Below, piece after piece: positions 1 to 19,176 of a stretch of DNA of 34,383 nucleotides. Made by a program: the position numbers and the translations under genes. Numbering within the stretch: the first letter of the stretch is position 1; each line of letters opens with the position of its first letter. The notes under the pieces were generated by a model. The model did not search any database. It was not told the origin of the DNA and worked only from the letters and a program-made list of their open reading frames with translations. This stretch comes from Bacillota bacterium (GTDB lineage: Bacteria > Bacillota > Clostridia > Oscillospirales > Oscillospiraceae): positions 1-34,383 of the forward strand of contig JAUNCL010000024.1 in assembly GCA_030535235.1 (NCBI GenBank). Direction: 5' to 3'.

Positions 1-525
1 CAGGGCCCTCCAGAGGAAGGTCACGATCTGAGCGCGGGTGCAGTCATCGTTGGGGCTGAAGGTGGTGTCGGTCGTACCGGTGGTAATCCCGTTCTCCACG
101 GCCCACAGGACTGCGTCAGAGTAGTAGGCGTCATCCGCCACGTCGGTGAAGGGGTTGGCTCCATCGGCGTCGGGAGACTCCTGAGAGCGCCACAGGAAGG
201 TGACGATCTGCCCGCGGGAGCAGGTTGCATCGGGGCTGAAGGTGGTGTCGCTGGTGCCCTTGGTGATGCCGTTCTCCACGGCCCACAGGACCGCGTCGTG
301 GTAGTAGCTGCCCTCGGCCACGTCGGTGAAGATCATCTCGCTGCTCTCCGGTTCGGGAGAACCGGCAGCACGCCACAGGAAGGTGACGGCCTGGGCGCGG
401 GTGCAGGTGGCGTTGGGTGCGAAGTGGGTCTCATCCACGCCGCTGGTGATGCTGTTCTTCACAGCCCACAGAACCGCGTCATAGTAGTAAGCGTCAGCGG
501 GGACGTCCACGAAGAAGTTCAGCAT
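1..525 (-). repeat. Tandem SLH-encoding repeats, exact 180-bp period
   Basis: The three SLH units are similar at DNA level. The block beginning gttctccacggcccacag recurs at 92, 272 and 452, an exact 180-bp (60-residue) step. Each unit encodes DAVLWAV.N.IT.G, then F.P...C.R.Q.VTFLWR. The spacing and nucleotide similarity point to internal duplication. The unit at base 1 is cut by the window edge. Confidence 0.9.
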
Positions 526-3500
526 GGAGTTATCCTCCATGAAGGTAGCCTTAACCGTGACATTGGATGCGGGCATGGTGAAGGTGTACTTGCCGTTCTT
601 CTCGGTGAGCTTCAGCTCGCCGCCGTTCTTGTCGGTGACGGTCAGGGTCTCCAGGGTGTAGCCCTTGTCGGGGGTGACGGTCAGCGTGACGGTGTCACCC
701 TTGGCGGCAGCCTTGTTGTCAGCAGTGACTTTGCCGTTGACGCTGTCCTTGATGACGACGGTTTCAGCCGGTGCGATTGCACCGCCGCCGCCACCGCCGG
801 CGGGCGGGGTGGTGGTCTTGCTCCAGCCGATGGCGAAGGGGGACAGGCTGGTGACGGTGAAGCTGATGCCGGTCTCGGTCTTTGTGGGTGTGATGCGCTC
901 GGTGTCGCCGATTGTATGGCCGTTCATGTTCGTGGTGAACATGTGGATGACGGTGAAGTCGTAGCTTCTGTCTGTACCGCCCAGTTCAGAGTACGGGATG
1001 GACACGGTGATGCCGCCGGCGGGGAAGTTGTCTTTATCAGCCTCTATCCAGTTGTTGCCGCCGTCCGTGGTATACTTCAGCACAATGTCGAACAGAGCCG
1101 TCTGGCTATCGGGGACCTTGCTGTCGATCTGCTTCACCTCTGCACGCAGAGCGGTCTGCAGCGTTTCCACATCCTTGTACTGACTCTGCAATGCGTTGGG
1201 AACCTCGCTCAGCGGCTCCTTCACTGTCTGGAAAGCTACCGACTCCACGCTCAGGGCGATGTTCTTCACGTTGGCCACGGTGATGGTGAAGCTGCCGTCG
1301 CCGTTGTTCCGGATGGTCAGCTTGTTCTCGGGGCCGCTGGTGCCAGTGGAGGTCAAGCAGTCAGTGCCGTTGACGATCAATTTCGTCAGATACTTACTGC
1401 TGTCGGGGGTGACGGTGAAGGTCACAGCGCCGCGGTCGCGAATCTGGTTTGCCTCGCCGTAGTCCGAAGGCATCTTCTTGATATTGCTGATGGTGTAGCC
1501 CGTGCCGTTGCCCGGGATACTGTGCAGCATCAGCGGTTCAAACTCCACAGTGACCTCAGTGGCTTTGCTCAGGTTCTCAATGGTCAGGGTGTTGGACAGG
1601 TTGTCCTGCACCACGCCGTTGACCTTCCACTCCTTGACCATATAGCCATCGGCGGGGTCCGCGGTCAGCACAACATTCTTGCCCTTCTCGATGCTGATGC
1701 CGGTGGAAGCGTCGATGGTGCTCAGGATCTTGCCGTAGCCCGCCTTGGCGGTCAGAGAACCGCCTTCAGAGTTCACGACCACGGTCTTGAACTCCACCAG
1801 CTGGCTGGCCGCGAATTTGGCGGCCACGGTGTGGGCTTCGGTCACATCGTTGAGAGTCAGGGTCATGCTGCCGTTGCCCTGATCTGTGCTGTCCAGAGTC
1901 CAGCCGGTCAGGTACTGGTAGGCGTCGGGTGCAGCAGTCAGCACCACGTTGTCATGGCGGCTGACGGTCAGCTTGTTATTTGTGATCTCTGCGGCTTCGC
2001 CGTTGACGGTGGCCGTCACGGTGCCGAGGCCGGTCACGTTTACAATGATGTCGTAGGTGGGGATGGTCTCAAATGCCACATACACACTGGCGTTGGCAAG
2101 CAGGTTTTCAAGGGTGTAGCTGTTCTGCTCAAAGGTGGTGCCGGGGATCGGCGCCGTACCATCCGCATTGCTGTACCAGCCCTTGACCCGATAGCCGTCG
2201 GCGGGCTTGGCGGTAAAGGCCACGTTGCTGCCGGCGGCGGCAGTATTATCAGCGTCCAACCGCCGGGCGGACAGGGTGCCGTTTTCACCGATGACGCCAT
2301 AGGTCACGGTGTAGCGCACCTCGTTCAGTGTGTAGATGGCTTCGACCACAGTATCCTTGGTGATGGTCAGGGTCAGGGATTCTGTCATCTCCTCTGAGGC
2401 CGCACCGTCTACGGTCCAGCCGGCGAAGATGTAGCCGGTGGCGTCGGCGGGGGCGGCGGTGAAGGTGACGGAGGTGTCGCCCACCACTCTGTCGCCGCTG
2501 GTGATGGCGGTCCCATTCGCCTTGGCGGAGACGGTGCCGTTTTTGCCGGAGAAGGTGACGGGGTAGGAGCTGCGGATGATCTTGACCTTCACGTCCGCGC
2601 CCACATTGGCGGTCACGCTGTAAGCGTAGGTCAGGCCGGTCTGTCCGTCAACTTTCACGTTGTTGACATACCAGCCCTCCACCTCGTAGCCGTCGGCCAG
2701 GTCGGAGACCGTGAAGGTGATAACACCGTTGGCCGTGGGCTTGTTGCCGCTGGGGAAGCTCGACGGGAGGGTGGTGCCGTTGGCCTGATAGACGGCGCTG
2801 AGGGATGCTTTGTCGGTCATCCCGGTGCTGTCAAAGCCGTAGGTCACTGCCTCGCCCACGGGGTCGAACTGGACCTGGACGGTCTGGTTGGCCGGGGCGC
2901 TGCCGGTGATGGTCAGAGTGGGCGCCGCGCTCTGTTCCTTGCCGTTCACAATCCACTTGCCGATCTTGTAGCCGGTATCCGGCTCAGCGGTGAAGGTGAC
3001 AACGGAGTCGCGGTAGACGGTTTCAGTGCCGTCTTTGTCGTTGGTTACGGCATAATCGCTCATGCCTTTGCGGGTGACGGACATGGTCAGCGTGCCGTCC
3101 AGGCCGCTGGCATCCGTGCCGTTCTTATCCACCACGGAGTGGCTGACCGTCACGGTGGGAATCTCCGTCCAGACGGGCACGATGGTCTGGTTCGTCTGTA
3201 CGTTGGAAATGGTGTAGGTCTTGTCGTCGGTGGTCGTGCCGTTGCCGTCGGTATAGGCGGCGGTGATGTCAGTTCCCAGATTGCCCACCTCGTAGCCCGT
3301 GCTGGGTTTGAGGGTGACGGTCAGTTCGGTGCCGAGGTCCACATAGCCGCCATTGTCCACGGGGGTATTTGCCGTGCCATTCACCGTTCCCTTGACGCTG
3401 ATCGCGCCGCCGGTGGGATTTGTCCACGAGACGGTGGGCTTCTTGGCCACGGTGACGGTGACGGCAGTATTGTCGGTCAGGGTCAGGGTCGCGGACTTGT

Positions 3501-6500
3501 TGTCCTCAGCCGGTGTGACATTATTGCTCCAGCCAGTCACATAGTAGCTGCCATCCAGGTCCAGGGTGAAGGTCACGGGGCTGTTGACGGCGTAGCTGTT
3601 GCCGCTGGTGAGGGAGGTATTGCCGCTCTTGGCGGTCAGTTTGGGGATGTTGCCGTCTGTGATCTCACCGGTACCTTCCATGACCTTCCAGCTCAGTTCA
3701 TAGGTCTGGGCCACAGCGATCACCACGCGGACATAGAGTTCCTCGCCGTGCTCATAGACCGTGATGGAATTCTGTCCGCCGGAGTTGGTCACGGTGGTCC
3801 AATGTATGTGGTCGGTGCTGGTCTGCCACTCCTGAACCACGGCGGAGGCGCTGTTGTCGATCGCCGCGGTGAAGGTCAGGGCGTCGGACCGGGGGACGCT
3901 CCCGAGGGCGCTGTCCGCGAGGGTATTCCCCTCCGCGTCGGTCACAGTGAGGGTGGCGGCGGTGTAGAGCACGCCCTTCGCATCCACGGCGGAGGCGGTC
4001 ACACGGGTGGTCTCCTCGGCGGTAAAGAGAACCTGTACGTCATAGTCCTCGGCGATGTTCTTCAGGGTGAGGATGTTCTCGCGGTAGAGCGCATCCGCGC
4101 CCTCCCACTTGTACTCTCCGCCGTTCACGAGCCACTTCTCCACCATCATGCCCTCCGCGGGCGCGGCGGTGAAGGTGACGGCGGCGTTGTGAGCCACGGA
4201 AGCGCCGCTGGTCAGCGGGGCGCTGCCGGCCGTCACGCGCAGGCTGCCGTTATCGCCGGCGCTGTAGGTGATCTGGTGGGTCTCGTTGGTGAAGGAGGCG
4301 GAAACGGAGATCTCCTTCTTGCCGGAGGTGTTGAGCGCCTGCATACCCGCTGCGGTGAACTCCAGCGTGTTGCCGTACCGGCTGGTGTAAGAGGTGTACC
4401 AGCTCTGCGCCACCGGGGAGCCGTCAAGCGTTACCGTCCAATCGTCCACAAACCAGCCCTCCGCCGGCTCGGCCACGAACTTGAGCCGGTAGTCCATGCT
4501 GATCTGGCTGCCGTCGCTGAAGGCGAACTCGGTGCCCATGGGGTCGATGTAGCGGGCGTAGACCTCGCCGTTTTCACCGGCGGAGAAATGCACCGCGATC
4601 GATCTGCTGAAGTAGTAGATGGTGCCGGTGTTGATGGTGACGCTGTAGCGGGAGAGGAACTCCGCCTTTTTGGCAGCGTCATTGACAAAATCCGGGGTAA
4701 CGGTGTAGGAGCCGGTCGCTGCGTTGGAGGCGATCGCGCCGCTGCTGTTGTACAGGCCGCAGGAGACCTTCATGATGCCCTCCAGGCTGGGGCTGGTGAG
4801 CGTGCGTCCCTGCGCGTCGGTAACGACCAGCTTGATGTCGTTATAGTCCGGGATGGTGTCGGTGCCCTCCCAGGTGGGCGTAACGGTGATGGGAACCTTG
4901 CTCACCGCCAGGATGGAGGAGGCCACAAGACTGCCGTCCACCAGAGCAGAGAACAGGTAGCTGCCCGCCGCGCCGGGGGTGTAGCTGGCGTCGCAGGCGG
5001 TGTTGTTCACCTTATAGCTGACGCCGCGTCTTACTGCGGTCCAGGTGTCATCGGTGCGCTGTTGCAGCTCCAGTATGACGGGTGCGGCGTTGTAGCTGAT
5101 GTTGGTGACCTGCGCGCCGTTTTGCTTCACAGCGAGCCGGTAGTTATTGCCGGGGTCTTCAGCGCGGTAGTAGCACTCGCCCGTGCTGGCCTTCGTGGCC
5201 GTGGTGGCGGAGGAGGAGGCCACGATGCGGTAGAGTCCGGAATTCGGCGCCGTCCACGTGGCCGTGCCGTTGGTGGCCGTGATCTGCGTCACCGCGCCGG
5301 TGTCCGTGTTGGTGATGGTGAAGAGCACCTGCGTGCTGACCGCGGCGCCGGTCTTGTCGGTGACGGCGGACTGCAGGGTGATCTGCTCACCGGTGCGCGG
5401 GGTGGAGACGGGCGTGGTATATGCCACCCTCTCCTCCACGGTGACGGCCGTCAGCTTCGCGCTGTCGACATATTCAGTCTCACCGCGGTAGAGCTTCGTG
5501 CCGGGGACGCGCCATATGGTCTGATACAGCGCAAAGTCCGCCTCGCCCTCCGCCTTGGAATAGACCGCGTAGCGGTCGTACTCCGAGGAGACGACGACCG
5601 TTTCGCCGTTGACGGTCTCTGTCAGCTCCGCGGCGTCGAGGATGAGGAGGCTGTCGCTCTCGTAGTACACCATGCGCAGATCGGCGCCGCTGTCGGGCTG
5701 CGGATCCGCTTTCGTAAAGGAGACTGTCTCGCCATCGACGGATCTGGTGTAGTACAGGCCGTCCTTCGCGCTGCGCCAGTACGCCGTCAGGCCGGCATCT
5801 GTCACAGCGTACTGCTTCACATAGATCGTGCCGTCATCACCGGGCTCCGAGACCGTATCCACGCCGGTGAAGTCGTTGGGGACGGGGTATACCTCGTCGG
5901 TATCGCCGCTGCGGTAGTAATAGCTGTCGCCCTCCGGCGTCAGCCGATCACCCGGCGTGTAGCTCACGCTCTCTCCGACGGTGTTCGCGGCGGCGGCGTA
6001 ATAGGTGCGGCTGCCCGTATCGCTCTCGTCAAGCACGGCGACGTACACGGGGTTGTTTTCGGGAGCTGTCGCGTCCTGATAGATCGTGTAGATCTTGCCG
6101 TCCTTTTCGGCGCTGGCCGGAACCTGCACGGAGCTGTAGCTTTTCTCCTCCGAGATCGCCGTATAATTTGCCAGACCCACATACGGGTCGGTGATGCTTC
6201 CGCTGATGCCGGTCTGCCCGGCCACGGCCACCGTCGTGGTGGTGGTCAGGCCGTTGAGATCCAGCGTGACGATGGGCGAATAATAGGTCTCGATATCGCC
6301 GGCCGAGGAGGTCGTTGTCACCACGCAGCGCAGATAGGCGCCGCTGAGGCTCTTGTCGATGGTCCTGAGGGTCAGGGAGCTGCTTGTCGCGCCGGAGACC
6401 GATCCGATCGCCGTGCTGGGCAGAGCGCTCACGGTGCGCCAGCCGTTCTTGATGCCCTCCGCGTCATTTTCAAGGAGCTGCCACTGATAGGAGGCGCTGC

Positions 6501-9500
6501 CGCCGCTTATGCCGGATACCTGGGCGGAGAGGCTCGCCTCGGCGCCGGTGCTCTGCAGGATATTGTCGCTGGTCAGCGAGGCGCCCACCAGCTTGAGCCG
6601 GACGGTGCTCCCCTCCGACTGGGTGCGCACGGTGATGGGGGCGCTGTCCACGGACTCACTGTTGTTCAAGTAGCTCACGCCGCGCACCACATAGGTATAG
6701 GTCTCGCCGGGCTTGAGGCCGGTGAGCGTAAAGGAGGTCTCATCGCCCTGTACCGCGCCCACGAGCACATATTGGGGGGCAGTCTCACGAATGCGGTAAA
6801 TGCGGTACTGATCGGCCTCGCGGAGGCCGCTGGACCAGCGCAGGGTGATGCTGTCGGTGGTGATGCTCTCCGCCGTCAGCCCCTCGGCGGGGGAGGGCGG
6901 GGCCACCACGTCCTTGACCAGATAGCCGATCACGGGCACGGTGCCGCCGTTGAGCTCGCAGTTCCATGCGGCAAGCTTCCACCGGAAGTTATAGCCGGGC
7001 GTCTCAACGCAGCTCACCGCGCCGGATTTGGTAACGGAGCGGCCGTTAATGTGGGTCTGTTCGCGGGCGTAGGCAAAGCCAAAGGTGGCGCTGGCGGTGA
7101 CGCCGCCGATCTTGGCAAAGATATTCAGCGAGACCCCCAGATCATAGGAGAAGGTTTTTTCCGTCTCCTTACCGCCGGTCCAGTATTGCATCATGGAGCC
7201 GGAGCCCTGATACTGCGCCCAGCCGCCGGAGGAGTCGCCGTTGCTGCCGTCGACGGCCCCCATCCCTGGCCCATTATACTGCAGCGCATTCGTCATCCCC
7301 TTTGTGCTGCTGCGGTAGCTGGCGGGGTTGCCGGACTCACCCAGCTTGACGATGTTGTCGTCGATGAGGTCAAGGTCGTCGTACTGCGCCGCCGCCTCGT
7401 TGTAGTCATCCACGGAGATCATGTTGGTGGCGGGCTGGCCGACCTGCTCCACCAACAGCTTCTTGCCGTCCTGATCCACATACCGGTAGGTGACAACCGG
7501 GCAGCGGTAGACCACCACCGCGTTATCGCCGGTGTCGTTTCTGAATTCTATCCCCCACTCCTCAGAGGTGGACTTGGCGGTGGTCCAGTTGTAAGCGCGC
7601 TCGATGGCCACCTCAAAGCCGCCGCCGCTCTGGGTGAGGTCGCTTTCAAATTCGTAGCCCACGGAGGAGCCCACCTTGAAGCCGAAGGTGTTGGAGTAGC
7701 CCGATACCGTCGTACTGCTGAGACCGTAGGTGGTCTCGCTGTTGTTGAAGGAGTCCTCGATCTCGGCAAAGTAGGGCGAGGTCTCCAGAATGGCCAGCAC
7801 GTCGGGCTTGCTGTAGTCCCGGGTGATCTCTTCCAGCTTGACGAGGATGCTGTCGTCATCCGTGTCCAGCGGGGCAAGAGAGACGTAGAAGTGGCCCTTG
7901 TGCTCGGTGAGGTAGCCGGAGCGCTTGCTGTCATACTTGTCGCTCCAGGAGTCGTCATCGCCGCAGGTGGCCTCGTTATGGTAGAAGTACACCTGAGAAT
8001 AGGCGTTGTTCTTGCCGCTCTGCTTCATGGCCGTGACACAGAGCAGCTGCTCGCGCCCCTCGTCGTTGCCGTCGAAGTTGCCGGCGGTGACGGCGGCGAC
8101 CGTGGTGTTGGTGAGCACGCGCCCGCCCGGAGCGAAGTCGTCCTTACTCTTGAAGCCGGCGTGGGTGTATTCCTCTTCCAGCTCCTCGCCCTCACTGTCG
8201 CTGCGGTACACCGTGCCGGAGATGAATACCGCCTCCGCCGAGCCGATGCCGCGATCGGCATAGGCCTGCACCTGCAGAAGGCCGTTCACGTCCTCGCTCT
8301 CATAGAAGCCGCCCCTCGTCCAACTGTTGGAACCGAGCGACTGGTTGAAGGCTTCTCCATATTCGCAGATGACGTTGACCGCGCTCATGGACTTACCGTT
8401 CGCGGAATAGGTGAACTTATTGCTGGTACTATCCGTGACGCTCTTCACCTGCACGACGGACACGCCGATATCGTCGTCGCCGCCCACGTTGATGTGCTGC
8501 GTATTGCTCCGCTCGTCGTCGATAAAGCCGGCGGTGACGATCTCGGGGTAGTCCACGTCGGAGCCGACGGACATGATGACATTGCCCACCGTGGAGGAGG
8601 CCCAGACGACGCGCTTGTAGCTCTTATCTTCTATGTAGATGCCGGGAGCACGCTGACCGTCAGAAGCACACTTGCCCTGAGCTTGGTAGCTGAGATTCCA
8701 TTTGCCGTCCCCGGTCGGCGTGATGCCCGCCGTCTTGCCGTTCAGCCGATCGTAGATAAAGACCTGGGACTGCAGCTGCGTATCGCCGCTGGTCACGTCG
8801 TTCATGCCGGCGGTGACGATCAGCTCGTCAAAGCCGTCCTTATCCACGTCCTCCGCCACCAGATCCACCATGGGCTGGTTGTGCATCTTGTCGATCATGT
8901 TGATCTGGTTGTTGCCCAGCAGCGTGAGCACGTTTGCCGCGACGGTGGACTTTTCCTGGAAGTTGTAGGTATCAAAGGAAAATTCCTTGATGAACGGGCT
9001 GGTCCCATTCTTGGTATTCTTGTTGGCGTCGGTCTGCGGGACATAGACCACAATGGTGTCCTTGCCGTCGCCGTCAAAGTCGCCGGCCGCGATGGAGAAC
9101 GCACCGTTGATCTGGTGGATCTGCATACCGCCGAGCTGGGCAACATTTTCAAACACCCACTGCACCACGCCGACCTGACGGTTGCTGCTGTCGGTCACAT
9201 AGAGATAGAGCGTGTTGCCGCTGGCGTTCAGCGCCAGATTGGCCACATACTCCTTCTTGCCGGTGCCGTAGAGGTCCATGGCCGCCGTGGCCACGGCCTT
9301 GTAGTTTTCGGTACGGGAGGTGAGCTGGCTCTGCCCGAATTTGTCGATCTTATCACGGATCGCTTCAACGGTCGTTCCCTCCGTACCGTTCCAGTCGAAC
9401 AGGCCGGTCAGGCGGGTGGCGCCGTCGTAGCCCATGGAGAAGAACAGCTCGTTCTTCTCCGACAGGGTCGTCCAGGTATTGTAGCCAGCGCCGAAGGGCA

Positions 9501-9666
9501 GGTTGGCCTCCGCCTCGGCCTTTTCCGCTGCGGTCCAGTCCGACAGGGTGATGCCGAAGGCGTCCACGGTGTCATCGTCCGCCGCCAGCGCCGACACGGC
9601 CGTGGCGGGCAGCAGAGACAGCACCATCACAAGGACCAGCGCCAGGCTCAATAGTCGCTTTTTCAT
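1..9666 (-). CDS. Giant secreted multi-repeat S-layer-anchored surface protein (3' end beyond window)
   Basis: The reading frame is open from the ATG at 9666 to base 1, giving 3,222 residues with no stop, so the C-terminus is cut. Residues 1 to about 28 form a signal peptide (MKKR, hydrophobic core, ALA cleavage site). FG-GAP/VCBS-like Ca-binding motifs follow near residues 187-208 (DFDGDGKD), 264-284 (DVDKDGFDE) and 521-546 (NFDGNDEG). An Fn3 domain lies near 919-1010, an Ig-like domain near 1033-1130 and a Big_1-like domain near 1420-1485. About a dozen divergent InlB-B repeats (pattern VTFTA.PA.GY.V..W.VNG) fill about 1690-2720. A Gly-rich linker near 2953-2968 and one more repeat precede three SLH repeats from about 3048. 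SLH domains normally bind pyruvylated cell-wall polymer, so it is probably a cell-surface adhesin or sensor; its ligand is unknown. The start overlaps the stop of the upstream two-helix gene (ATGA), implying coupled translation. A 2,171-residue open frame on the opposite strand is a shadow. Confidence 0.93.
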   Translation of the reverse strand, partial: MKKRLLSLALVLVMVLSLLPATAVSALAADDDTVDAFGITLSDWTAAEKAEAEANLPFGAGYNTWTTLSEKNELFFSMGYDGATRLTGLFDWNGTEGTTVEAIRDKIDKFGQSQLTSRTENYKAVATAAMDLYGTGKKEYVANLALNASGNTLYLYVTDSSNRQVGVVQWVFENVAQLGGMQIHQINGAFSIAAGDFDGDGKDTIVVYVPQTDANKNTKNGTSPFIKEFSFDTYNFQEKSTVAANVLTLLGNNQINMIDKMHNQPMVDLVAEDVDKDGFDELIVTAGMNDVTSGDTQLQSQVFIYDRLNGKTAGITPTGDGKWNLSYQAQGKCASDGQRAPGIYIEDKSYKRVVWASSTVGNVIMSVGSDVDYPEIVTAGFIDDERSNTQHINVGGDDDIGVSVVQVKSVTDSTSNKFTYSANGKSMSAVNVICEYGEAFNQSLGSNSWTRGGFYESEDVNGLLQVQAYADRGIGSAEAVFISGTVYRSDSEGEELEEEYTHAGFKSKDDFAPGGRVLTNTTVAAVTAGNFDGNDEGREQLLCVTAMKQSGKNNAYSQVYFYHNEATCGDDDSWSDKYDSKRSGYLTEHKGHFYVSLAPLDTDDDSILVKLEEITRDYSKPDVLAILETSPYFAEIEDSFNNSETTYGLSSTTVSGYSNTFGFKVGSSVGYEFESDLTQSGGGFEVAIERAYNWTTAKSTSEEWGIEFRNDTGDNAVVVYRCPVVTYRYVDQDGKKLLVEQVGQPATNMISVDDYNEAAAQYDDLDLIDDNIVKLGESGNPASYRSSTKGMTNALQYNGPGMGAVDGSNGDSSGGWAQYQGSGSMMQYWTGGKETEKTFSYDLGVSLNIFAKIGGVTASATFGFAYAREQTHINGRSVTKSGAVSCVETPGYNFRWKLAAWNCELNGGTVPVIGYLVKDVVAPPSPAEGLTAESITTDSITLRWSSGLREADQYRIYRIRETAPQYVLVGAVQGDETSFTLTGLKPGETYTYVVRGVSYLNNSESVDSAPITVRTQSEGSTVRLKLVGASLTSDNILQSTGAEASLSAQVSGISGGSASYQWQLLENDAEGIKNGWRTVSALPSTAIGSVSGATSSSLTLRTIDKSLSGAYLRCVVTTTSSAGDIETYYSPIVTLDLNGLTTTTTVAVAGQTGISGSITDPYVGLANYTAISEEKSYSSVQVPASAEKDGKIYTIYQDATAPENNPVYVAVLDESDTGSRTYYAAAANTVGESVSYTPGDRLTPEGDSYYYRSGDTDEVYPVPNDFTGVDTVSEPGDDGTIYVKQYAVTDAGLTAYWRSAKDGLYYTRSVDGETVSFTKADPQPDSGADLRMVYYESDSLLILDAAELTETVNGETVVVSSEYDRYAVYSKAEGEADFALYQTIWRVPGTKLYRGETEYVDSAKLTAVTVEERVAYTTPVSTPRTGEQITLQSAVTDKTGAAVSTQVLFTITNTDTGAVTQITATNGTATWTAPNSGLYRIVASSSATTATKASTGECYYRAEDPGNNYRLAVKQNGAQVTNISYNAAPVILELQQRTDDTWTAVRRGVSYKVNNTACDASYTPGAAGSYLFSALVDGSLVASSILAVSKVPITVTPTWEGTDTIPDYNDIKLVVTDAQGRTLTSPSLEGIMKVSCGLYNSSGAIASNAATGSYTVTPDFVNDAAKKAEFLSRYSVTINTGTIYYFSRSIAVHFSAGENGEVYARYIDPMGTEFAFSDGSQISMDYRLKFVAEPAEGWFVDDWTVTLDGSPVAQSWYTSYTSRYGNTLEFTAAGMQALNTSGKKEISVSASFTNETHQITYSAGDNGSLRVTAGSAPLTSGASVAHNAAVTFTAAPAEGMMVEKWLVNGGEYKWEGADALYRENILTLKNIAEDYDVQVLFTAEETTRVTASAVDAKGVLYTAATLTVTDAEGNTLADSALGSVPRSDALTFTAAIDNSASAVVQEWQTSTDHIHWTTVTNSGGQNSITVYEHGEELYVRVVIAVAQTYELSWKVMEGTGEITDGNIPKLTAKSGNTSLTSGNSYAVNSPVTFTLDLDGSYYVTGWSNNVTPAEDNKSATLTLTDNTAVTVTVAKKPTVSWTNPTGGAISVKGTVNGTANTPVDNGGYVDLGTELTVTLKPSTGYEVGNLGTDITAAYTDGNGTTTDDKTYTISNVQTNQTIVPVWTEIPTVTVSHSVVDKNGTDASGLDGTLTMSVTRKGMSDYAVTNDKDGTETVYRDSVVTFTAEPDTGYKIGKWIVNGKEQSAAPTLTITGSAPANQTVQVQFDPVGEAVTYGFDSTGMTDKASLSAVYQANGTTLPSSFPSGNKPTANGVITFTVSDLADGYEVEGWYVNNVKVDGQTGLTYAYSVTANVGADVKVKIIRSSYPVTFSGKNGTVSAKANGTAITSGDRVVGDTSVTFTAAPADATGYIFAGWTVDGAASEEMTESLTLTITKDTVVEAIYTLNEVRYTVTYGVIGENGTLSARRLDADNTAAAGSNVAFTAKPADGYRVKGWYSNADGTAPIPGTTFEQNSYTLENLLANASVYVAFETIPTYDIIVNVTGLGTVTATVNGEAAEITNNKLTVSRHDNVVLTAAPDAYQYLTGWTLDSTDQGNGSMTLTLNDVTEAHTVAAKFAASQLVEFKTVVVNSEGGSLTAKAGYGKILSTIDASTGISIEKGKNVVLTADPADGYMVKEWKVNGVVQDNLSNTLTIENLSKATEVTVEFEPLMLHSIPGNGTGYTISNIKKMPSDYGEANQIRDRGAVTFTVTPDSSKYLTKLIVNGTDCLTSTGTSGPENKLTIRNNGDGSFTITVANVKNIALSVESVAFQTVKEPLSEVPNALQSQYKDVETLQTALRAEVKQIDSKVPDSQTALFDIVLKYTTDGGNNWIEADKDNFPAGGITVSIPYSELGGTDRSYDFTVIHMFTTNMNGHTIGDTERITPTKTETGISFTVTSLSPFAIGWSKTTTPPAGGGGGGAIAPAETVVIKDSVNGKVTADNKAAAKGDTVTLTVTPDKGYTLETLTVTDKNGGELKLTEKNGKYTFTMPASNVTVKATFMEDNSMLNFFVDVPADAYYYDAVLWAVKNSITSGVDETHFAPNATCTRAQAVTFLWRAAGSPEPESSEMIFTDVAEGSYYHDAVLWAVENGITKGTSDTTFSPDATCSRGQIVTFLWRSQESPDADGANPFTDVADDAYYSDAVLWAVENGITTGTTDTTFSPNDDCTRAQIVTFLWRAL

Positions 9667-10001
9667 ACTCTTTCCTCACTTCCTTCCGTACGTCCTGTAC
9701 GGTTTGTTGATTTGTTTTTCAGCCGGATACAGAGCACGGTCACAGTCACGCCAACGACAAAGGCCAGAAGACCAGTGACGACATACGTCACCGCGCCGTC
9801 CCGCAGCAGCACCCCGCCGTAGCCGTATGCCACCGCCGCGATGCCCGGCGTCTGTACGCTTCTGAAAAGAACGCCGATACCGGCGAGAAGAAACAGGCTG
9901 CACACGGTCAGGCAGGAAAGCAGCCGGGCTTCCTGCCGCTTTCGGTACTGCCGTGTCCTGCTTCGGATCTCCCGCATCCGGGTTTCCGTCTTGCCGGTCA
10001 T
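9663..10001 (-). CDS. Small two-helix membrane protein, paralogue of the sigma-operon two-helix protein
   Basis: This 112-residue protein has a basic, Arg/Lys-rich N-terminal segment (about residues 1-26), a first membrane helix (about 27-46), a short outside loop and a second membrane helix (about 70-92), then a charged tail. A strong GGAGGGAGG ribosome site lies about 8 bases before the ATG, and the stop overlaps the start of the giant SLH protein (ATGA). It clearly resembles the product of 11394-11744: both have RT....K in the N-terminal arm and a second helix of the form GL.AF..GV.VTVL...RL. The shared architecture, and the partner's location behind a sigma factor, suggest a role in signalling or in assembly of the surface protein; this is inference. 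I do not recognise a named family. A 156-residue frame covering the same bases (to 10146) lacks this similarity and was not chosen. Confidence 0.82.
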   Translation of the reverse strand: MTGKTETRMREIRSRTRQYRKRQEARLLSCLTVCSLFLLAGIGVLFRSVQTPGIAAVAYGYGGVLLRDGAVTYVVTGLLAFVVGVTVTVLCIRLKNKSTNRTGRTEGSEERV

Positions 10002-10089
10002 TCGATAAACCTCCCTCCGTATCGTTCTTAGGGTACAAAACCCCTCTATTTATTAAAAGACATGAAATCAAAAATCCTTCCACCAAAAA

Positions 10090-10137
10090 TGAAAATTTTT
10101 TCAAAAAATTTGAGCCGCCCCATTTCTGAGGCGGCTC
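10090..10137 (-). terminator. Rho-independent terminator of the sigma-PrsW operon
   Basis: The arms GAGCCGCC (10112-10119) and GGCGGCTC (10130-10137) form a perfect 8-bp stem with a 10-base loop. Read on the minus strand it is followed by AAATTTTTT. It lies just after the prsW-like stop codon and separates that operon from the two-helix/SLH unit. The gap from here to 10001 shows no convincing sigma-A promoter on the minus strand. Confidence 0.88.
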
Positions 10138-10151
10138 GTCACGCAAAGCGG

Positions 10152-10793
10152 TTATTCAACTGTGATTTTGAGCCTGGGAAGCAGGAGCTTTCCCGCAAAT
10201 AAAAGGGCGATCAGGACCGACGGAAACAGATAGCCCGCGGTCTGCCAGGCCCCCGCCCCGGAGATCAGCAGGTTATAGGTGGCATGGAACACGATGCAGG
10301 CGCCCAGCAGGCCCATCGTTCCGGTAAAGACCAGCCACCGGCGGCGGAACACATAAGACAGCCCGAACCCGATCAAAATGCCGCAGAGGATGTGCAGCGC
10401 CCCGGCGGACAGCCCGCGGATCAGCAGAAACATCAGGTTTTCCGCGCCGTTCTCCGTCAGATAGCACGCATTTTCAAAGGTGGCAAAGCCCACGGCAAGG
10501 GCAACGGCGGCTTCGGGCAAAGTCCGGACCTTGGGCTCAAAAATCAGAACGTAGAAAAGCAGCGGCAGCAGCTTCATCACTTCCTCGCACACCGGCGTAA
10601 TCTCAACGACGGCAACGGTGGCGCTGACGCCGTAATGCCCCATGAAGAAGCTGTTGACATAGGCGGACAGCAGGCAGACGCTCATTCCGGCCATCATGAA
10701 CAGCATGAAGACCCGGGTGCGCCCCCCGATAAACAGGATGCAGAGCACCAGCGGTATGGCAAGGCAGACGAAAATATTCTCAATATAGATCAT
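10152..10793 (-). CDS. PrsW-family intramembrane glutamic-type protease
   Basis: This 213-residue polytopic membrane protein carries the PrsW/CPBP-like signature residues: E70-E71 with K74 (PVCEEVMK), E107-N108 (FATFEN), H134 (HILCG) and H170...N174 (FHATYN), all within or beside hydrophobic helices. In Bacillus subtilis, PrsW makes the first cut in the anti-sigma factor RsiW and so releases SigW (established knowledge). Here the gene is the last of a four-gene operon that starts with an ECF-type sigma factor. The obvious inference is that it cleaves a co-encoded membrane partner of that sigma factor. The start overlaps the stop of the upstream gene by ATGA and has a GGAGG site about 10 bases before it. 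It is close to the usual family length. Confidence 0.88.
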   Translation of the reverse strand: MIYIENIFVCLAIPLVLCILFIGGRTRVFMLFMMAGMSVCLLSAYVNSFFMGHYGVSATVAVVEITPVCEEVMKLLPLLFYVLIFEPKVRTLPEAAVALAVGFATFENACYLTENGAENLMFLLIRGLSAGALHILCGILIGFGLSYVFRRRWLVFTGTMGLLGACIVFHATYNLLISGAGAWQTAGYLFPSVLIALLFAGKLLLPRLKITVE

Positions 10794-11404
10794 TTCCCCG
10801 CCACCTCCCGGAGGGCCAGCGGCAGCAGCGCCGCAAAGGAAAGGGTCAGCGTAATGTCTACGGCGAAGTAGAGATTGAAGCGGGTAAAGTCCGGCATAAA
10901 AACGGACACCACAAACAGAAGCATCTGCAATCCCACGCAGAGCAGCAGCCAGCAGTCAACCAGCCCTCCGTCGTCTCTGCGCCGGAGCCGCCACACCGTC
11001 AGATATACGATGGCGGAGAAAACCCCGGAAAATGCCGCAGAGACAAAATAGGACGGGCCGAACATCCGAACCACCAGAACAACCGCTGCCGTCAGCAGGG
11101 CGCAGACCAGGGCTGGCAGGGAAAAAAACGGCCTTACCCGGTCTGTCCGCACCATCTGGAAGGACAGCAGGAACAGATACGCCGCCAGCCAGGAAAACTC
11201 CGAGACATAGAAAACCTGGGGTACGTTGCCGAAAATGAAAAGGTGCAGCACCCAATAGAGGGTTCCCATGGAAACGCAGGCAAAAAACAGGGCCAGGATC
11301 AGGAAGCGGCGGTCTTTGCGCCGGAGCGTCGCCGCAATCGCTGCCAGCGCCGCACACAACAGCACGGCAATTTGAAAACAGTTGTCGATCAGTTCAAAGT
11401 TCAT
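10790..11404 (-). CDS. Seven-helix membrane protein of the sigma-PrsW operon, unknown function
   Basis: This 204-residue protein is almost entirely hydrophobic, with about seven predicted membrane helices (roughly residues 7-26, 33-56, 66-84, 92-114, 120-142, 148-170 and 176-198) separated by short basic loops such as RRKDRR and RRRDDGG. I recognise no catalytic motif or named family. It overlaps the upstream two-helix gene by 11 bases and the downstream prsW-like gene by 4, so it is almost certainly co-translated with them. It could be a receptor, a scaffold or an anti-sigma helper, but the sequence alone does not decide this. Confidence 0.8.
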   Translation of the reverse strand: MNFELIDNCFQIAVLLCAALAAIAATLRRKDRRFLILALFFACVSMGTLYWVLHLFIFGNVPQVFYVSEFSWLAAYLFLLSFQMVRTDRVRPFFSLPALVCALLTAAVVLVVRMFGPSYFVSAAFSGVFSAIVYLTVWRLRRRDDGGLVDCWLLLCVGLQMLLFVVSVFMPDFTRFNLYFAVDITLTLSFAALLPLALREVAGK

Positions 11405-11744
11405 CGTCCGAATTCTCCCGCTGTTCTCTCTCGTTCCTGCGGTGCAGGCGGTACAAAAGCACCGTCACGAACACGCCGAGCAGAAAGGCCATCAGCCCCA
11501 TGAGGATATAGCCCAACGCCGCGTGGCTCCCAACAAGGCTTGCCGCGCCGGAGGCGTGGTGTACTTCACCGCCGGGAACGCCCACCACCCAATCGGGTAA
11601 AAACGAGCCGATCCCAACGACGAGGATCAGGCAGGCCGCGATACAGAGCATATCCAACGCGCGATGTTTCTTCGTTTGGCGTTCCTTTTTTATTTCTGCC
11701 GTCCGCTTATGAATCAATTCGGCGCGCTCTTCATTCGTCCGCAT
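11394..11744 (-). CDS. Two-helix membrane protein behind the sigma factor (candidate anti-sigma partner)
   Basis: This 116-residue protein has a highly charged cytoplasmic N-terminus (about residues 1-28, rich in E, K and R), a first helix near 30-50, an outside loop containing HHASG, a second helix near 74-98 and a charged tail RLHRRNERE. The ATG lies inside the 3' end of the sigma gene (14-base overlap) and has a near-ideal AGGAGGG site 8 bases before it. Small membrane proteins immediately downstream of ECF sigma genes are often anti-sigma factors, and a PrsW-like protease is encoded two genes further on; that role is inference because no known anti-sigma fold is evident. It is paralogous to the 9663-10001 product. 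Confidence 0.82.
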   Translation of the reverse strand: MRTNEERAELIHKRTAEIKKERQTKKHRALDMLCIAACLILVVGIGSFLPDWVVGVPGGEVHHASGAASLVGSHAALGYILMGLMAFLLGVFVTVLLYRLHRRNEREQRENSDDEL

Positions 11745-12267
11745 AGGTAAATCCCTCCTGTTCCAGGATCGCTTTTAGGCTTTGCTTCCCGCGGTAGACC
11801 AGCTTTGTGATCTGCCCCTCGCTTTGATTCATAACCGCTGCCGCATTGCGGTAGCTCATATCCTCAAAGTAGACCAGATAAAGGGCTTCCCGGTATTCCG
11901 CCTTCAGTTTTTCCAGGGCGGCATAGAGCTGACGGCTGCGCTCGCTGCGATAAAGCTCCGTGTCAGCAAGCATGTGGCTCTGAGGCTCAAAGTCCAATTC
12001 CTCAAAACGCAGAAAGCGGAGCCTGTGCTTTTTCCTGTGGCGCAAGGCGAGATTTCGCGCCGTTTTATACAGATACGCTTGAAAGGCTCCCTCACCTGTG
12101 ATCGGACGCTCCTTTGCAAAAATCTGTGAAAATGCTTCGATCATCAAGTCCTCGGCCTCGTGCATATCCTTGAGATAACCATTTATATACAGCGTCAGTG
12201 GGTCGCCGTATTTTTCAACCAGCAGATCGGCGGCGTCTTGCTCTCCGTCAAGATACCGCCGGTACAC
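11731..12267 (-). CDS. ECF-type RNA polymerase sigma factor
   Basis: From the GTG at 12267 the protein has 178 residues. Region 2 spans about residues 8-80, including the LTLYINGYL...AEDLMIEAF core and the basic stretch RNLALRHRKKHR. Region 4 is a helix-turn-helix near 115-170 (REALYLVYFEDMSYRNAA). It has no region 1 or 3, as usual for ECF-like factors, and its regulon is unknown. The start is doubtful: the GTG has no ribosome site within range, while a good GGGAGG (12294-12299) sits 8 bases before an in-frame ATA at 12285 and 11 before an ATT at 12282. The frame has no ATG before the upstream stop at 12319. The extended N-terminus would read about (M)IISDETVYRR. A sigma-A promoter lies at 12366-12394. 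Confidence 0.88.
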   Translation of the reverse strand: MYRRYLDGEQDAADLLVEKYGDPLTLYINGYLKDMHEAEDLMIEAFSQIFAKERPITGEGAFQAYLYKTARNLALRHRKKHRLRFLRFEELDFEPQSHMLADTELYRSERSRQLYAALEKLKAEYREALYLVYFEDMSYRNAAAVMNQSEGQITKLVYRGKQSLKAILEQEGFTYADE

Positions 12268-12365
12268 GGTTTCGTCTGAAATTATGGTTGCCGCCTCCCT
12301 TCGTGTTTTATGCGGGGATCAGAGGGCTTTTCCGCCTCCGACGGGATCGCCCGTTTCCTACATGT

Positions 12366-13742: not shown

Positions 13743-15560
13743 TTACTTTTCCACCACGAAGTTTTCCTTGGTGAGTTCGTTGTACATACCACGCTTGACG
13801 TAGTGGGTGTGCAGGTACTCGTGAGAGGCATGACCGCCGGGCTCGCCCCACTCCTTGTAGAACTCCATGAGGGACTTGTTCTCGTGGGACTTACGGACCA
13901 GCTTGCGCTCGTCCTCGCCGTAGATGGCTTCCAGTCTCTTCTGGCGGACGATGTTGATGTCCTGCTTGGGTCTCGGCTGACCGCCGCCGGTGATGCAGCC
14001 GCCGGGGCAGCCCATGACCTCAATGAAGTGGTAGGGAGAGGTACCCTGCTTGACCTGCTCCATGAGCTTCCGGGCGCCCTCGTAGCCGCTGGTGACGGCG
14101 ATCTTGACCTCAAAGCCCTCGGCAGCCTTCCACTCGGGCTTCACGTTCTCCAGCTTGATGGTGGCCTCGCGGATCTGGTCCAGACCCACGATGGGGGAGA
14201 CGTGGAGGTTGGGGAAGGGCAGCTCACGGCCGGTGATGATCTCATAGACGGTGCGCAGGGCAGCCTCCATCACGCCGCCGGTGACGCCGAAGATGTCGGC
14301 TGCGCCGGAGGAGAAGCCCAGAGGTGCGTCGAACTCCTCCTCGGGCAGGGACAGGAAGTCGATGCCCATGGTCTTGATCAGGTCGCCCAGCTCGCGGGTG
14401 GTGATGACGGCATCCACGTTGGGCACGCCGTCGTTCATCATCTCGGGACGGGCGCACTCGGTCTTCTTGGCGGTGCAGGGCATGACGGAGACCACATACA
14501 TGTCCTCGGGCTTCTTGCCCAGCTTCTTGGCGTAGTAGCTTTTGATGACTGCGCCGAACATCTGGTGGGGAGACTTGCAGGAGGACAGGTGATCCAGCTC
14601 GGTGGGATAGTTGTGCTCAATGAACTGGATCCAGCCGGGGGAGCAGGAGGTCATCATGGGCAGGGTGGCCACGCCGCCGGTGACAACGGCACGGAAGCGC
14701 TTCAGGAACTCGGTGCCCTCTTCCATGATGGTCAGGTCAGCGCCCCAGTTGGTGTCAAAGACGTCGTCGAAGCCCATGCGGCGCAGGGCGGCAGCCAGCT
14801 TGCCGGTCTCGCAGGAGCCGGCGGGCAGGCCAAAGCACTCGCCGATGCCCACGCGGACGGCGGGGGCGGGCTGAACCACCACATACTTGTTGGGGTCGTT
14901 CAGGGCCTTCAGGACCCGGTCCTTGTGGCTGGTCTCCTTCAGAGCGCCCACGGGGCAGACCACCACGCACTGTCCGCAGAAGGTGCAGGCGGTGTTGCCG
15001 ATGGACAGACCCAGACCGGGGGTGATGACGGTGTCAAAGCCGCGGTTCTCAGCAGTGAGAATGGAGGTCGTCTGAATGTTCTTGCAGACGTTGACGCAGC
15101 GGCGGCACAGAATGCACTTGTTGGGGTCACGGGTGAGGGACTCGCTGACGTCGATGGGCAGCAGCTTGCGCTCGCCCTCGTAGGGGGAGTCCTCCACGCC
15201 CAGCTCACGGCCCAGAGCCTGCAGTTCGCAGTCCTGGTTCCGGGCGCAGGTCAGGCACTTCTTGTCATGGTTGGACAGAAGCAGCTGATACATGGTCTTG
15301 CGGGCGTCCTGGACCCGCTCGTTGTTGGTTTCAATGACCATGCCGTTCTTGGCCTCCACCATACAGGAGGCCTGGAGATTCTTGGCGGGCGGGCTGACCT
15401 GCTCCACCACGCAGATGCGGCAGGCGCCATACTTGTTGATGCCCTCCAGATAGCACAGCTTAGGGATGTGAATGCCGTTGAGCTCGGCGGCCTGCAGAAT
15501 GGTGCTGCCCGCCGGCGCGATACATTCCTTCCCGTTGATCGTGAGTTTAATATCTGCCAT
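13743..15560 (-). CDS. hydA: [FeFe] hydrogenase catalytic subunit of an NAD(P)-linked bifurcating-type complex
   Basis: This 605-residue protein begins with a 2Fe-2S ferredoxin domain (C36, C47, C50, C66). A His-Cys3 cluster (H98, C102, C105, C111) and a two-cluster 4Fe-4S ferredoxin domain (C149/152/155/159 and C192/195/198/202) follow. The H-cluster domain carries L1 TSCSPGW (304-310), L2 MPCTAKK (360-366) and L3 EVMGCPGGC (514-522). It would reduce protons or oxidise H2, passing electrons to or from the flavin subunits encoded just upstream (5-base gap to hydB). L1 has Ser where the classic motif TSCCPGW has its second Cys; I recall this variant from HndD-type subunits. The operon order NuoE-like, NuoF-like, HydA fits trimeric NAD-linked hydrogenases. 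The product is cytoplasmic, with no signal peptide. Confidence 0.95.
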   Translation of the reverse strand: MADIKLTINGKECIAPAGSTILQAAELNGIHIPKLCYLEGINKYGACRICVVEQVSPPAKNLQASCMVEAKNGMVIETNNERVQDARKTMYQLLLSNHDKKCLTCARNQDCELQALGRELGVEDSPYEGERKLLPIDVSESLTRDPNKCILCRRCVNVCKNIQTTSILTAENRGFDTVITPGLGLSIGNTACTFCGQCVVVCPVGALKETSHKDRVLKALNDPNKYVVVQPAPAVRVGIGECFGLPAGSCETGKLAAALRRMGFDDVFDTNWGADLTIMEEGTEFLKRFRAVVTGGVATLPMMTSCSPGWIQFIEHNYPTELDHLSSCKSPHQMFGAVIKSYYAKKLGKKPEDMYVVSVMPCTAKKTECARPEMMNDGVPNVDAVITTRELGDLIKTMGIDFLSLPEEEFDAPLGFSSGAADIFGVTGGVMEAALRTVYEIITGRELPFPNLHVSPIVGLDQIREATIKLENVKPEWKAAEGFEVKIAVTSGYEGARKLMEQVKQGTSPYHFIEVMGCPGGCITGGGQPRPKQDINIVRQKRLEAIYGEDERKLVRKSHENKSLMEFYKEWGEPGGHASHEYLHTHYVKRGMYNELTKENFVVEK

Positions 15561-15565
15561 TTCAC

Positions 15566-18500: not shown

Positions 18501-18649
18501 AGCTCCTCTACCAGGGCGTCCCGGACGTCCTTACAGCCGGAGGACATACAGCCGGTGCCATAGCAAACCATGGCCAGGTGGCTGTACTGGCCCAGCTTTT
18601 CCTGGTAGAGTTCCTTCATTTTCTGAAGGTCAGCGATACTTTTAATCAT
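15566..18649 (-). CDS. hydB: HydB/NuoF-like flavoprotein fused to a GltD/NfnB-like FAD-NAD(P) module
   Basis: This 1,027-residue protein is a fusion. Residues 1-105 form a thioredoxin-like 2Fe-2S domain (C29, C34, C66, C70). Residues about 120-545 are the NuoF core: FMN/NADH site GRGGAGFPAG (184-193), CGEETAL (302-308), an SLBB-like region and a 4Fe-4S site (C473, C476, C479, C519). From about 549 a complete GltD/NfnB-like module follows: an Fe-S domain (C554, C562, C566 and C601/605/609/613), an FAD site GSGPSGL (660-666), a second nucleotide site GGGNTA..S.RTA (791-803), and a GVFVGGDA motif near 927. HydB subunits are usually about 600 residues; in NfnB the extra module handles NADPH and bifurcating FAD. 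A combined NADH/NADPH role is inference. The start overlaps hydC by ATGA. Confidence 0.92.
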   Translation of the reverse strand: MIKSIADLQKMKELYQEKLGQYSHLAMVCYGTGCMSSGCKDVRDALVEELEKAGLTGDVAVIERGCMGTCAVGPVVYVLPDETYYTEMTPDRVRDVVQKHFIGGEPVLEYTFYDSIQKKRVANIHDVAFFRDQVRIALRNCGLIDVNCINSYVAKDGYLALARILEKGDRMEVIEELKKSGLRGRGGAGFPAGVKWEAAYNQPGDEKYIICNADEGDPGAFMDRSVFEGDPHSVIEGMLIGGYAIGAQHGVVYIRAEYPIAVERLQAALEMAREEGILGQDIFGSGFNFDIEIRIGAGAFVCGEETALMASVEGKRGEPRQKPPFPFQSGLFGKPTIINNVETLATVPAIMLNGADWFRQYGTEQSPGTKVFALSGNIINTGLVEVPMGTPLSEVIYSIGGGIPNGKKFKSAQTGGPSGGCITAENINTPLDYESLAALGSIVGSGGLIVMDEDTCMVDTARFYLDFIQEESCGKCTACRIGTKRMLEILNRIVAGDGKPGDIETLEHLGAVIKDTAMCGLGQTAPNPVLSTIKYFRKEYEEHIVEKLCSAGVCGDLVSSPCENTCPAGINIPGYMSLIATGDYMGAARVMLRDNPFSGICGRVCTHPCESRCRRGSVDEAMNICELKRFATDWAYEHNFPSDEDLKPVAKLDKNVAVIGSGPSGLTCAYYLARLGYHVDVYEAEDRAGGIMTYGIPDYRLPLNIIEREIGNIKKTGVNIILNTKVGVDVSFRALRENYDAMFIAIGAQKTLRLDIPGEDLEGVYHGLDFLKRVIMKSDLDFTGKKVAVIGGGNTAIDSARTAVRLGAKEVVMLYRRTMEDMPADKIEIRDALEEGVEIRTLVNPTDFIGIGGKLTSICIMKQKLGQFDSSGRRKAVASGESYVEEFDIAIPAISQTPDTAFIKGSIRLNGDRVVADHYTQATSMPGVFVGGDAHRGPKDIVNAVHEAKVAASGIDKYLGGTGELAKGFEQEITDYHIEGDIVPHNRFLTRQLEAEEAVGSFCERNLGMHELDARAEASRCLRCDRR

Positions 18650-19176
18650 GCTCCAGCACCTCCTTCGGCGACGGTCTCAGGGGCGTCGGCATACAGGGCC
18701 AGAATACCTCTGAGCTTTGCAGGGGTGACCTGCTTGTAAACGTCATCATCCACCATCATGGCGGGGGCCAGACCGCAGGCGCCGATGCAGCGGGCGATCT
18801 CGAAGGTGAACTGGCCGTCCTCGGTGGTGCCGCCCACCTCCACATTCAGCTCCTTCTTAATGGCGTCAACCACCTTCTTGCCGCCGCGGACGTAGCAGGC
18901 GGTACCCTGGCACATGCGGATGGTGTGCTTGCCGCGCTTCTGGGTGGAGAAGAAGGAATAGAAGCTCACAACGCCGCTGACCTCAGAGATGGGCAGGTTC
19001 ATCCCGTCGGCGACAAATCGCTGGACCTCCATGGGGAGATATCCGTAAATCTCCTGGGCTGCGTGGAGGACCATGATCAGAGCGCCTTCCTTTTCTTTGT
19101 ACTGCTCGATTACCTGGGCGATCTGCTCAAATGCACTGTCGTGATCGCATTCACAGGTCGTGTGTTTCGGACTCAT
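18646..19176 (-). CDS. hydC: HydC/NuoE-like 2Fe-2S subunit of the hydrogenase complex
   Basis: This 176-residue protein has the NuoE-type helical N-terminal part (residues about 15-80, with G.LP.EV and GVVSFYSFF) and a thioredoxin-fold 2Fe-2S domain with C89, C94, C130 and C134 (CQGTAC and CIGAC). It would accept electrons from the FMN of HydB. It is the first gene of hydCBA. AAAGGAG lies about 7 bases before its ATG, and its stop overlaps the hydB start (ATGA). A leader of about 185 bases with a two-tier hairpin separates it from a Rex-controlled promoter. Confidence 0.94.
   Translation of the reverse strand: MSPKHTTCECDHDSAFEQIAQVIEQYKEKEGALIMVLHAAQEIYGYLPMEVQRFVADGMNLPISEVSGVVSFYSFFSTQKRGKHTIRMCQGTACYVRGGKKVVDAIKKELNVEVGGTTEDGQFTFEIARCIGACGLAPAMMVDDDVYKQVTPAKLRGILALYADAPETVAEGGAGA

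Follow-up and report, generated by a model that had tools for sequence, protein, structure and literature searches.

The window analysed here is a 34,383-nucleotide stretch of DNA that makes up one complete contig (JAUNCL010000024.1; G000:C42 in our numbering) of a 2.25-Mb draft genome from a bacterium of the Oscillospiraceae. On its minus strand we found, in this order, the genes for an extracytoplasmic function (ECF) sigma factor, a two-helix membrane protein (TM2A), a seven-helix membrane protein (7TM) and a PrsW-family protease, then a hairpin with a T-run, a promoter-like element, a TM2A paralogue (TM2B) and the gene for a giant surface protein (the cargo). We consider it reasonably probable that these parts form a self-contained membrane-to-promoter cassette, in which 7TM would act as the receptor, TM2A as the anti-sigma factor, PrsW as the cleaving protease, a single promoter as the target of the sigma factor and TM2B as the source of feedback. 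The features of the cassette, in positions of the window, are as follows.

11731..12291, minus strand: ECF-type sigma gene; Sigma70_r2 and r4_2 over the Pfam cut-off; start uncertain (ATA 12291, ATT 12288 or GTG 12267)
11394..11744, minus strand: TM2A, two-helix membrane protein, candidate anti-sigma factor or tether; overlaps sigma; 76% identity in genome G124; N-terminal arginines
10790..11404, minus strand: 7TM, seven-helix protein, candidate receptor; AlphaFold2 model, opsin-like matches, long-protein relatives
10152..10793, minus strand: PrsW-family intramembrane protease; PF13367, 62 bits
10103..10137, minus strand: terminator-like hairpin and T-run 3' of PrsW, read from the sequence
10041..10084, minus strand: promoter-like element GGTGGAAG-N14-TGTCTTT..., inferred sigma target; matrix score 48.1
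9663..10001, minus strand: TM2B, TM2A paralogue of the B clade, first gene of the putative target unit
1..9666, minus strand: cargo, a giant secreted protein of the surface, truncated by the contig end; FG-GAP, fn3, InlB-like repeats, three S-layer homology (SLH) stretches and, by eye, a signal peptide
12292..12350, minus strand: remnant of the C-terminal codons of a small helix-turn-helix (HTH) gene (..AIPSEAEKPSDPR..); such a gene precedes sigma in some relatives

An overlapping four-gene operon had been proposed in a first-pass annotation of this DNA, and all four genes and their overlaps were confirmed: the sigma gene (12291/12267-11731) shares 14 nt with TM2A (11744-11394), the end of TM2A overlaps 7TM (11404-10790) and the end of 7TM overlaps PrsW (10793-10152). 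The end coordinate then given to the system, 12285, falls inside the sigma N-terminus. The sigma start codon is uncertain because an ATA at 12291 stands where relatives (e.g. G124) have a conserved ATG; a good ribosome-binding site lies upstream of this ATA, which may be an unusual start codon or reflect an error in the sequence. TM2B begins 150 bp after PrsW, and its stop codon and the ATG of the cargo overlap as ATGA at 9666. The same annotation had described a paralogue coupled in this way to a surface protein of more than 3,200 residues, and we agree with that description: TM2B matches TM2A at E 2.4e-8 (34% identity), and the cargo frame runs through 3,222 codons without a stop as far as base 1; as this is also the end of the contig, the C-terminus of the cargo is not visible. 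Because a hairpin follows PrsW and a promoter-like element of its own precedes TM2B, TM2B and the giant gene look like a transcription unit separate from the sigma operon.

To survey relatives we scanned named genomes with a PrsW alignment, and the locus counts below come from the best 80 of 320 relatives, a set in which TM2 genes (TM2A and TM2B together) stand beside PrsW by construction (L and G numbers are our handles for loci and genomes). All five small genes (sigma, TM2A, 7TM, PrsW and TM2B) were present in 58 of the 80 loci. Only TM2B was absent in 11, six of which have at most 220 bp after PrsW; sigma was present and TM2A absent in 4, and sigma was absent in 7. Contig ends plainly cut 8 of these 22 incomplete loci (L063, L064, L066, L082, L091, L107, L115 and L118), and only three loci of the set have TM2 genes without sigma (L082, L107 and L114), two of them at contig ends. 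Of the 69 loci with both sigma and TM2A, 49 have an overlap of exactly 14 nt. Given this overlap and the 58 loci with all five genes, the association of these genes is not due to chance. An HTH gene before sigma, found by pattern in at least 8 of 69 loci, was considered as a sixth part of the cassette and rejected.

Searches that started from the small membrane proteins gave a similar picture. With TM2A as query, 15 of 200 genomes of the same family, our own included, had a match at E<1e-6 and 14 of them a credible second copy; a single 7TM query found 12 of the 200, of which 11 were among those 15. We examined 17 stretches, and in 15 of the 16 that hold TM2 genes (E<1e-6), all from other genomes of the family, sigma and PrsW lie beside these genes, the exception (L052) starting at a contig end 218 b before the TM2B frame. 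These loci support the view that the parts form one conserved module, and homologues that regularly occur without sigma or PrsW genes were not seen among the 16. One family locus, L053, looks decayed, and two others, L054 and L057, have a TM2B-cargo unit that runs divergently from the sigma operon and is still adjacent to it. The three other genomes of the same genus that were searched had neither TM2A nor 7TM. With our own genome counted each time, 8 genomes out of 297 from the order had TM2 (E 1e-6); at E 1e-12, 7TM was found in 11 of 393 from the class (three with internal stops, one inside a long frame) and in 2 of 299 from the phylum. The distribution of the system is patchy.

The promoter-like element, which lies between the hairpin and TM2B, spans ~44 bp; its consensus, GGTGRRAG-N14-TGTMYCT, leads into an A/T-rich stretch and GTGAAAGG. 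A trained matrix scored above 14 in 59 of 65 regions upstream of TM2B. In a held-out test, in which every site at least 65% identical was left out of the matrix, 59 of 59 sites were re-found and 55 of 59 scored above all 1180 shuffles; the element of the window scored 28.9 in this test and the highest of 1180 shuffles 11.8. An initial held-out grouping, since replaced, had put 56 of the 59 sites in one cluster, and with it 58 of 59 were re-found and 33 of 59 were above all shuffles. The hairpin and T-run were found in 54 of 65 PrsW-TM2B gaps, compared with an average of 2.4 and at most 4 in 20 shuffles. We detected no element before sigma, where the best score in 71 upstream regions was -14.9 and the best with held-out matrices, in 55 regions, was 3.8. 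Of the shared promoter that had been envisaged before both units, only the copy before TM2B and cargo was found. A whole-genome search that allowed at most 3 mismatches recovered a single site in the genome of the window and in each of 5 others, and the same threshold gave no match in genome G409. We infer that this element, its -35/-10 reading included, is the target promoter of the cassette's sigma factor.

A scan of both strands of all 80 loci (2.35 Mb) gave 69 matches to the element, and the only ones outside the place between PrsW and TM2B or cargo were a site in L092 at 6498, a minus-strand copy in L087 and second copies in L074 and L112. In L112, cargo and TM2B have separate copies; in L110 the element stands before the cargo and TM2B is absent; and in L132 it comes before a large protein of unknown kind, which TM2B follows. 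In these three arrangements, the element follows the target unit when genes rearrange. L083 has the element and no TM2B. Two groups of relatives have an element of their own at the same place, as read by eye: GTGAGAAAAA...CGACTAA in the clade of L050, L051, L055, L058 and L059, and GGAAYTTTC...GACTCTATA in that of L054, L056 and L057, looser in L056. Genome G085 contains two systems, L055 and the TM2A-less L056, with different elements. We also noted a LytTR-type regulator behind the element at L113:10766-11515 (by Pfam), fused to what appear to be the first residues of TM2B, and at L087:8236-8964 (by eye). In L074 (5366-6885) a gene at 5597-6718, by eye like a membrane-anchored relative of choloylglycine hydrolases, is flanked by two copies of the promoter and of the start of TM2B, as if a second sigma target had been captured.

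The sigma protein (186 codons) belongs to the ECF group by its matches to PF04542 (38.6 bits) and PF08281 (48.6 bits), both over the cut-off, and sigma-H, SigE, SigW and sigma-E chains are among its relatives of known structure by sequence. TM2A, 7TM and TM2B pass no Pfam cut-off, and none of the three passes one in NCBIfam. In a tree of 151 TM2 sequences, built from few columns and with a rough bootstrap, the B sequences (72 rows, support 99/96) stand apart from A, with one long-branch row, L082_B0, breaking the pattern; because of this split, descent of A and B from one old duplication is the simplest reading. The N-terminus of TM2A (MRTNEER...R) is basic and, as predicted from sequence, cytoplasmic and ~30 residues long. 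Two of its arginines (alignment columns R13 and R21) are kept in 99% and 100% of 70 A sequences and in 94% and 92% of 62 B sequences (62 of 64 rows; L081_B0 and L082_B0 were left out). Common to both proteins are these two arginines and a GY...F...T pattern in the second helix, and A has in addition the MRTxEER start. TM2B has an A-type N-terminus in 10 of 64 cases overall and in all 3 loci of the 80-locus set that have TM2B and lack TM2A. Where sigma is followed directly by 7TM, TM2B is present in 4 of 4 loci with downstream DNA (L056, L092, L132 and L140). The N-terminal residues common to TM2A and TM2B fit one shared cytoplasmic partner.

No anti-sigma-named family was among the 12 Pfam matches of TM2A at E 1, and its match to YxlC/DUF5345 (PF17280), which we take to be the family of the anti-SigY protein, lies below the cut-off and is a lead only (12.9 bits, cut-off 27, E 0.13). 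Its N-terminus of ~30 residues is also shorter than the cytoplasmic domain of at least 50 residues by which class I anti-sigma domains are delimited in PMC7406223. Weak relatives of TM2 (best E 3e-4) were spread over unrelated Pfam families among the matches listed, and a designed coiled coil of known structure was matched by sequence (E 0.0037); neither was used. In L080, where sigma and TM2A share one frame, a co-fold model joins the TM2A N-terminus and the first membrane helix in a single unbroken helix. We rejected this fusion of frames as evidence of contact, since the two frames are separate in the closely related L077, L079 and L081 and a single base accounts for the fusion.

The AlphaFold2 model of 7TM has seven helices (pLDDT 93.1, pTM 0.90), and its structure matches are opsin-like, sensory rhodopsin II included. 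The 7TM family also forms the N-terminal part of long membrane proteins at L060:507-3005 and L170:1900-4437, the former with dCache and HD-GYP domains as well. Because of this topology and these fusions, 7TM is probably the receptor of the cassette. The L060 protein resembles a c-di-GMP phosphodiesterase with a seven-helix input domain. Microbial rhodopsins bind retinal through a lysine in helix 7. We considered a retinal photoreceptor and rejected it, as lysine has a frequency of 0.00 at residues 177-197 in 67 sequences; judged by the aligned ends, the place for retinal is close to residue 190, and the K/R at 199 is near the cytoplasmic end. 7TMR-DISM_7TM (PF07695) was matched at E 0.1 by 3 of 67 7TM members, and the protein of the window scored 17.4 bits against its cut-off of 29. 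Weak relatives (best E 4e-4) were spread over unrelated Pfam families among the matches listed, and a sequence match to a neurotensin receptor chain of known structure (E 0.009) was likewise not used.

PrsW is a member of its family by PF13367 (62 bits, cut-off 23.5) and scored 30 bits against the 225 of the PrsW equivalog (NF033739). Residues E70, E71, K74, E107, H134, H170 and N174 are invariant in 15 relatives, and we take E70, E71, E107, H134 and H170 to be catalytic. An M50 site-2 protease is encoded in the same genome (PF02163, E 1.4e-56).

By its signal peptide and SLH stretches (E 3.6e-32) the cargo of the window is an SLH surface protein. A signal-peptide gene comes next after TM2B in 44 of 64 loci, within 60 nt in 36 and by ATGA overlap in 19 (L081, L086 and L120, whose next frames are not credible secreted genes, were left out of this count). 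SLH stretches occur in 11 of these 44 cargos and a sortase-like PxTG end in 6 (both in L093), 12 run off the contig, and the N-terminal and middle domains vary (FG-GAP, Calx-beta, beta-helix, GLUG, DUF6273, MBG and dockerin). In L075, L077, L078, L080 and L082, TM2B is followed by an LD-carboxypeptidase-like (S66 peptidase) gene and then by peptide-type ABC transporter genes, an operon tested with Pfam in L078. By eye, response-regulator-like genes and no surface protein follow TM2B at L058:9331-10764, and at L081:10643-12250 the TM2B frame runs into a dihydrolipoamide-dehydrogenase-like protein, probably in a chimeric contig.

We compared cassette and cargo DNA in eight locus pairs. The cassettes of Oliverpabstia (L072, Clostridia), Holdemania (L073, Erysipelotrichia) and Oscillibacter (L074, Clostridia) are 96-99% identical in DNA over a stretch that begins ~250 bp ahead of sigma and reaches 29-49 nt into the cargo gene, interrupted in L074 by an insertion. 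Past this break their cargos have no DNA match of at least 150 nt, and those of L072 and L073 still have one repeat type in common. As cassettes that are nearly identical in two bacterial classes go with different cargo, the controller travels and the cargo often changes. Identity also breaks near the cargo start in L090/L106 and in L099/L138, the latter with patchy weak matches later; L090/L093 have a break and then common pieces, and similar cargo is kept in L106/L138 and L101/L103. Stores of cargo genes sharing the signal-peptide DNA were not supported: this DNA matched only itself in the genome of the window and in G064, twice in G360, and not at all in G118 and G377.

We propose the following sequence of events, in which the binding of sigma by TM2, the cleavage by PrsW, the trigger by 7TM and the feedback by TM2B are inferred. 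The short basic N-terminal helix of TM2A would keep the sigma factor inactive at the membrane. On sensing a cue in or outside the membrane, the opsin-like 7TM would trigger PrsW to cut TM2A, the housekeeping M50 site-2 protease would complete the cleavage, and the freed sigma factor would recognise essentially one genomic promoter, that before TM2B and cargo, so that the giant surface protein is made. TM2B, made with the cargo and bearing the same N-terminal motif, would then recapture sigma and end the response, the sigma operon itself having no copy of the promoter. Feedback on sigma is a more likely role for TM2B than a physical link to the cargo, given that TM2B is also the first gene of a non-surface operon and persists through cargo exchange. 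The first-pass annotation had the second two-helix protein link the surface protein to the same signal; a tie of the TM2B-cargo unit to sigma through the private promoter-like element agrees with this.

Several observations weigh against this proposal. The promoter sites were counted by strict patterns, and weaker sites could be missed. The A-type TM2B proteins of TM2A-less loci all belong to one clade, where ancestry may explain them. TM2A exceeds the cut-off of no recognised anti-sigma family in Pfam, and the sigma-TM2A co-fold, made on the single L080 frame, has a pTM of 0.49 and gives no confident arrangement, with only 3 near-identical relatives for the TM2A part; it speaks neither for nor against contact. 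In L109 and L112, TM2A lies beside 7TM/PrsW and apart from sigma. Fourteen of the 80 loci depart from the five-gene set as variant, decayed or partly seen, with a contig end not the whole cause: L087 and L089 keep 7TM-PrsW and have no sigma or TM2 in 9.3 and 5.8 kb upstream, and sigma is also missing in L088, L097 and L114, where there is less or partial sequence. In the Calx-beta clade the match to the 7TM profile is weak (L050, 1.7e-5; L051, 3.6e-4; L059, 9e-5) or absent (L055 and L058). Finally, at 20 of the 64 TM2B loci the next gene is not convincingly a secreted one.

The arrangement in L109 and L112, where TM2A stays with 7TM/PrsW and not with sigma, would also suit a different role for the two-helix proteins, namely that of transducers paired with 7TM as their receptor, with sigma held by the complex or by 7TM loops and PrsW ending the signal. 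The opsin-like 7TM model, with sensory rhodopsin II among its matches, and the charges that place both TM2 ends in the cytoplasm are consistent with such a pair. Nevertheless, the 14-nt overlap puts TM2A in the usual place of an anti-sigma gene and the cytoplasmic loops of 7TM are short, and we regard a transducer role as rather unlikely. The ATGA overlaps and the frequency of a signal-peptide gene next to TM2B could instead mean that TM2B is an export, anchoring or folding partner co-translated with the giant protein, with no regulatory role. We give this little credence, as TM2B heads the LD-carboxypeptidase/ABC transporter operon in 5 loci, is kept when SLH and sortase-type cargos exchange, lies behind the large protein in L132 and has N-terminal residues in common with TM2A.

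It seems very improbable that the cassette is the Bacillus SigW-RsiW-PrsW envelope-stress pathway under another name. The two systems do resemble each other: as in SigW-RsiW-PrsW-RasP (PMC3498285), there is an ECF sigma factor, a PrsW-family protease and, in the genome, a site-2 protease, and the obvious route by which sigma could be released is regulated intramembrane proteolysis. However, 89 Bacillus subtilis genes are called strictly SigW-regulated in that source, compared with the one promoter site found here. The PrsW of the window also falls far short of the equivalog (30 of 225 bits), and its operon has no RsiW-like protein, the candidate anti-sigma factor being a two-helix protein with a ~30-residue cytoplasmic end. 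Moreover, the cassette adds 7TM and a second TM2, places PrsW inside the sigma operon and has no element before sigma.

The cassette as we propose it shares with SigM-YhdL-YhdK the restraint of one ECF sigma factor by two membrane proteins, YhdL and YhdK, which unlike TM2B are encoded within an autoregulated sigma operon (PMC6827917). In the cassette, by contrast, TM2A and TM2B are paralogues of each other, and TM2B is encoded by the target unit. We know of no PrsW or 7TM in the SigM system. In CnrY of Cupriavidus metallidurans the anti-sigma part sits on a membrane protein. CnrH-CnrY, with a class II anti-sigma factor (PMC7406223), resembles the cassette as we propose it in having a very short anti-sigma part. 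Two helices of CnrY wrap sigma, whereas the TM2A N-terminus models as one helix continuous with the first membrane helix. Sensory rhodopsin II pairs with the two-helix transducer HtrII. The cassette likewise has a seven-helix protein, whose model resembles microbial rhodopsins, beside a two-helix partner; in contrast to that pair, 7TM has no lysine at the retinal position and the output is a sigma factor rather than a kinase. The SigW-RsiW-PrsW and SigM-YhdL-YhdK systems thus seem nearest in working and class II anti-sigma factors nearest in size. None of these systems is known to combine 7TM, paired TM2 proteins and a single target. A literature search of partial coverage, which included portions of PMC8103513 and PMC3482391, found no description of this layout, and no paper was found on PrsW in connection with S-layer homology or Oscillospiraceae. 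It is possible that the cassette's sigma factor already has an ECF group number.

More tentatively, and as somewhat less likely than not, we suggest that the cassette represents a new class of one-receptor, one-promoter sigma circuit with a retinal-free opsin-fold receptor, a minimal two-helix anti-sigma factor controlled through PrsW and a paralogue for reset in the target operon. Exchanged between bacterial classes as a plug-in controller of changing surface proteins, it would be a dedicated switch for surface-antigen diversification in gut bacteria. If our proposals are correct, gut Bacillota hold orthogonal single-target sigma circuits with readable promoters (two in G085), which would help in asking what gut bacteria detect at their surface and could serve as insulated switches that are ready for use. 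The few known controls of ECF sigma factors would gain a seven-helix receptor family and a candidate two-helix anti-sigma factor, and there would be a testable reason why giant surface proteins vary while their control stays constant. With no sign of a link to the cassette, an adjoining operon at 13743-19176 of the window reads by eye like an electron-bifurcating hydrogenase/NADH dehydrogenase-type cluster.

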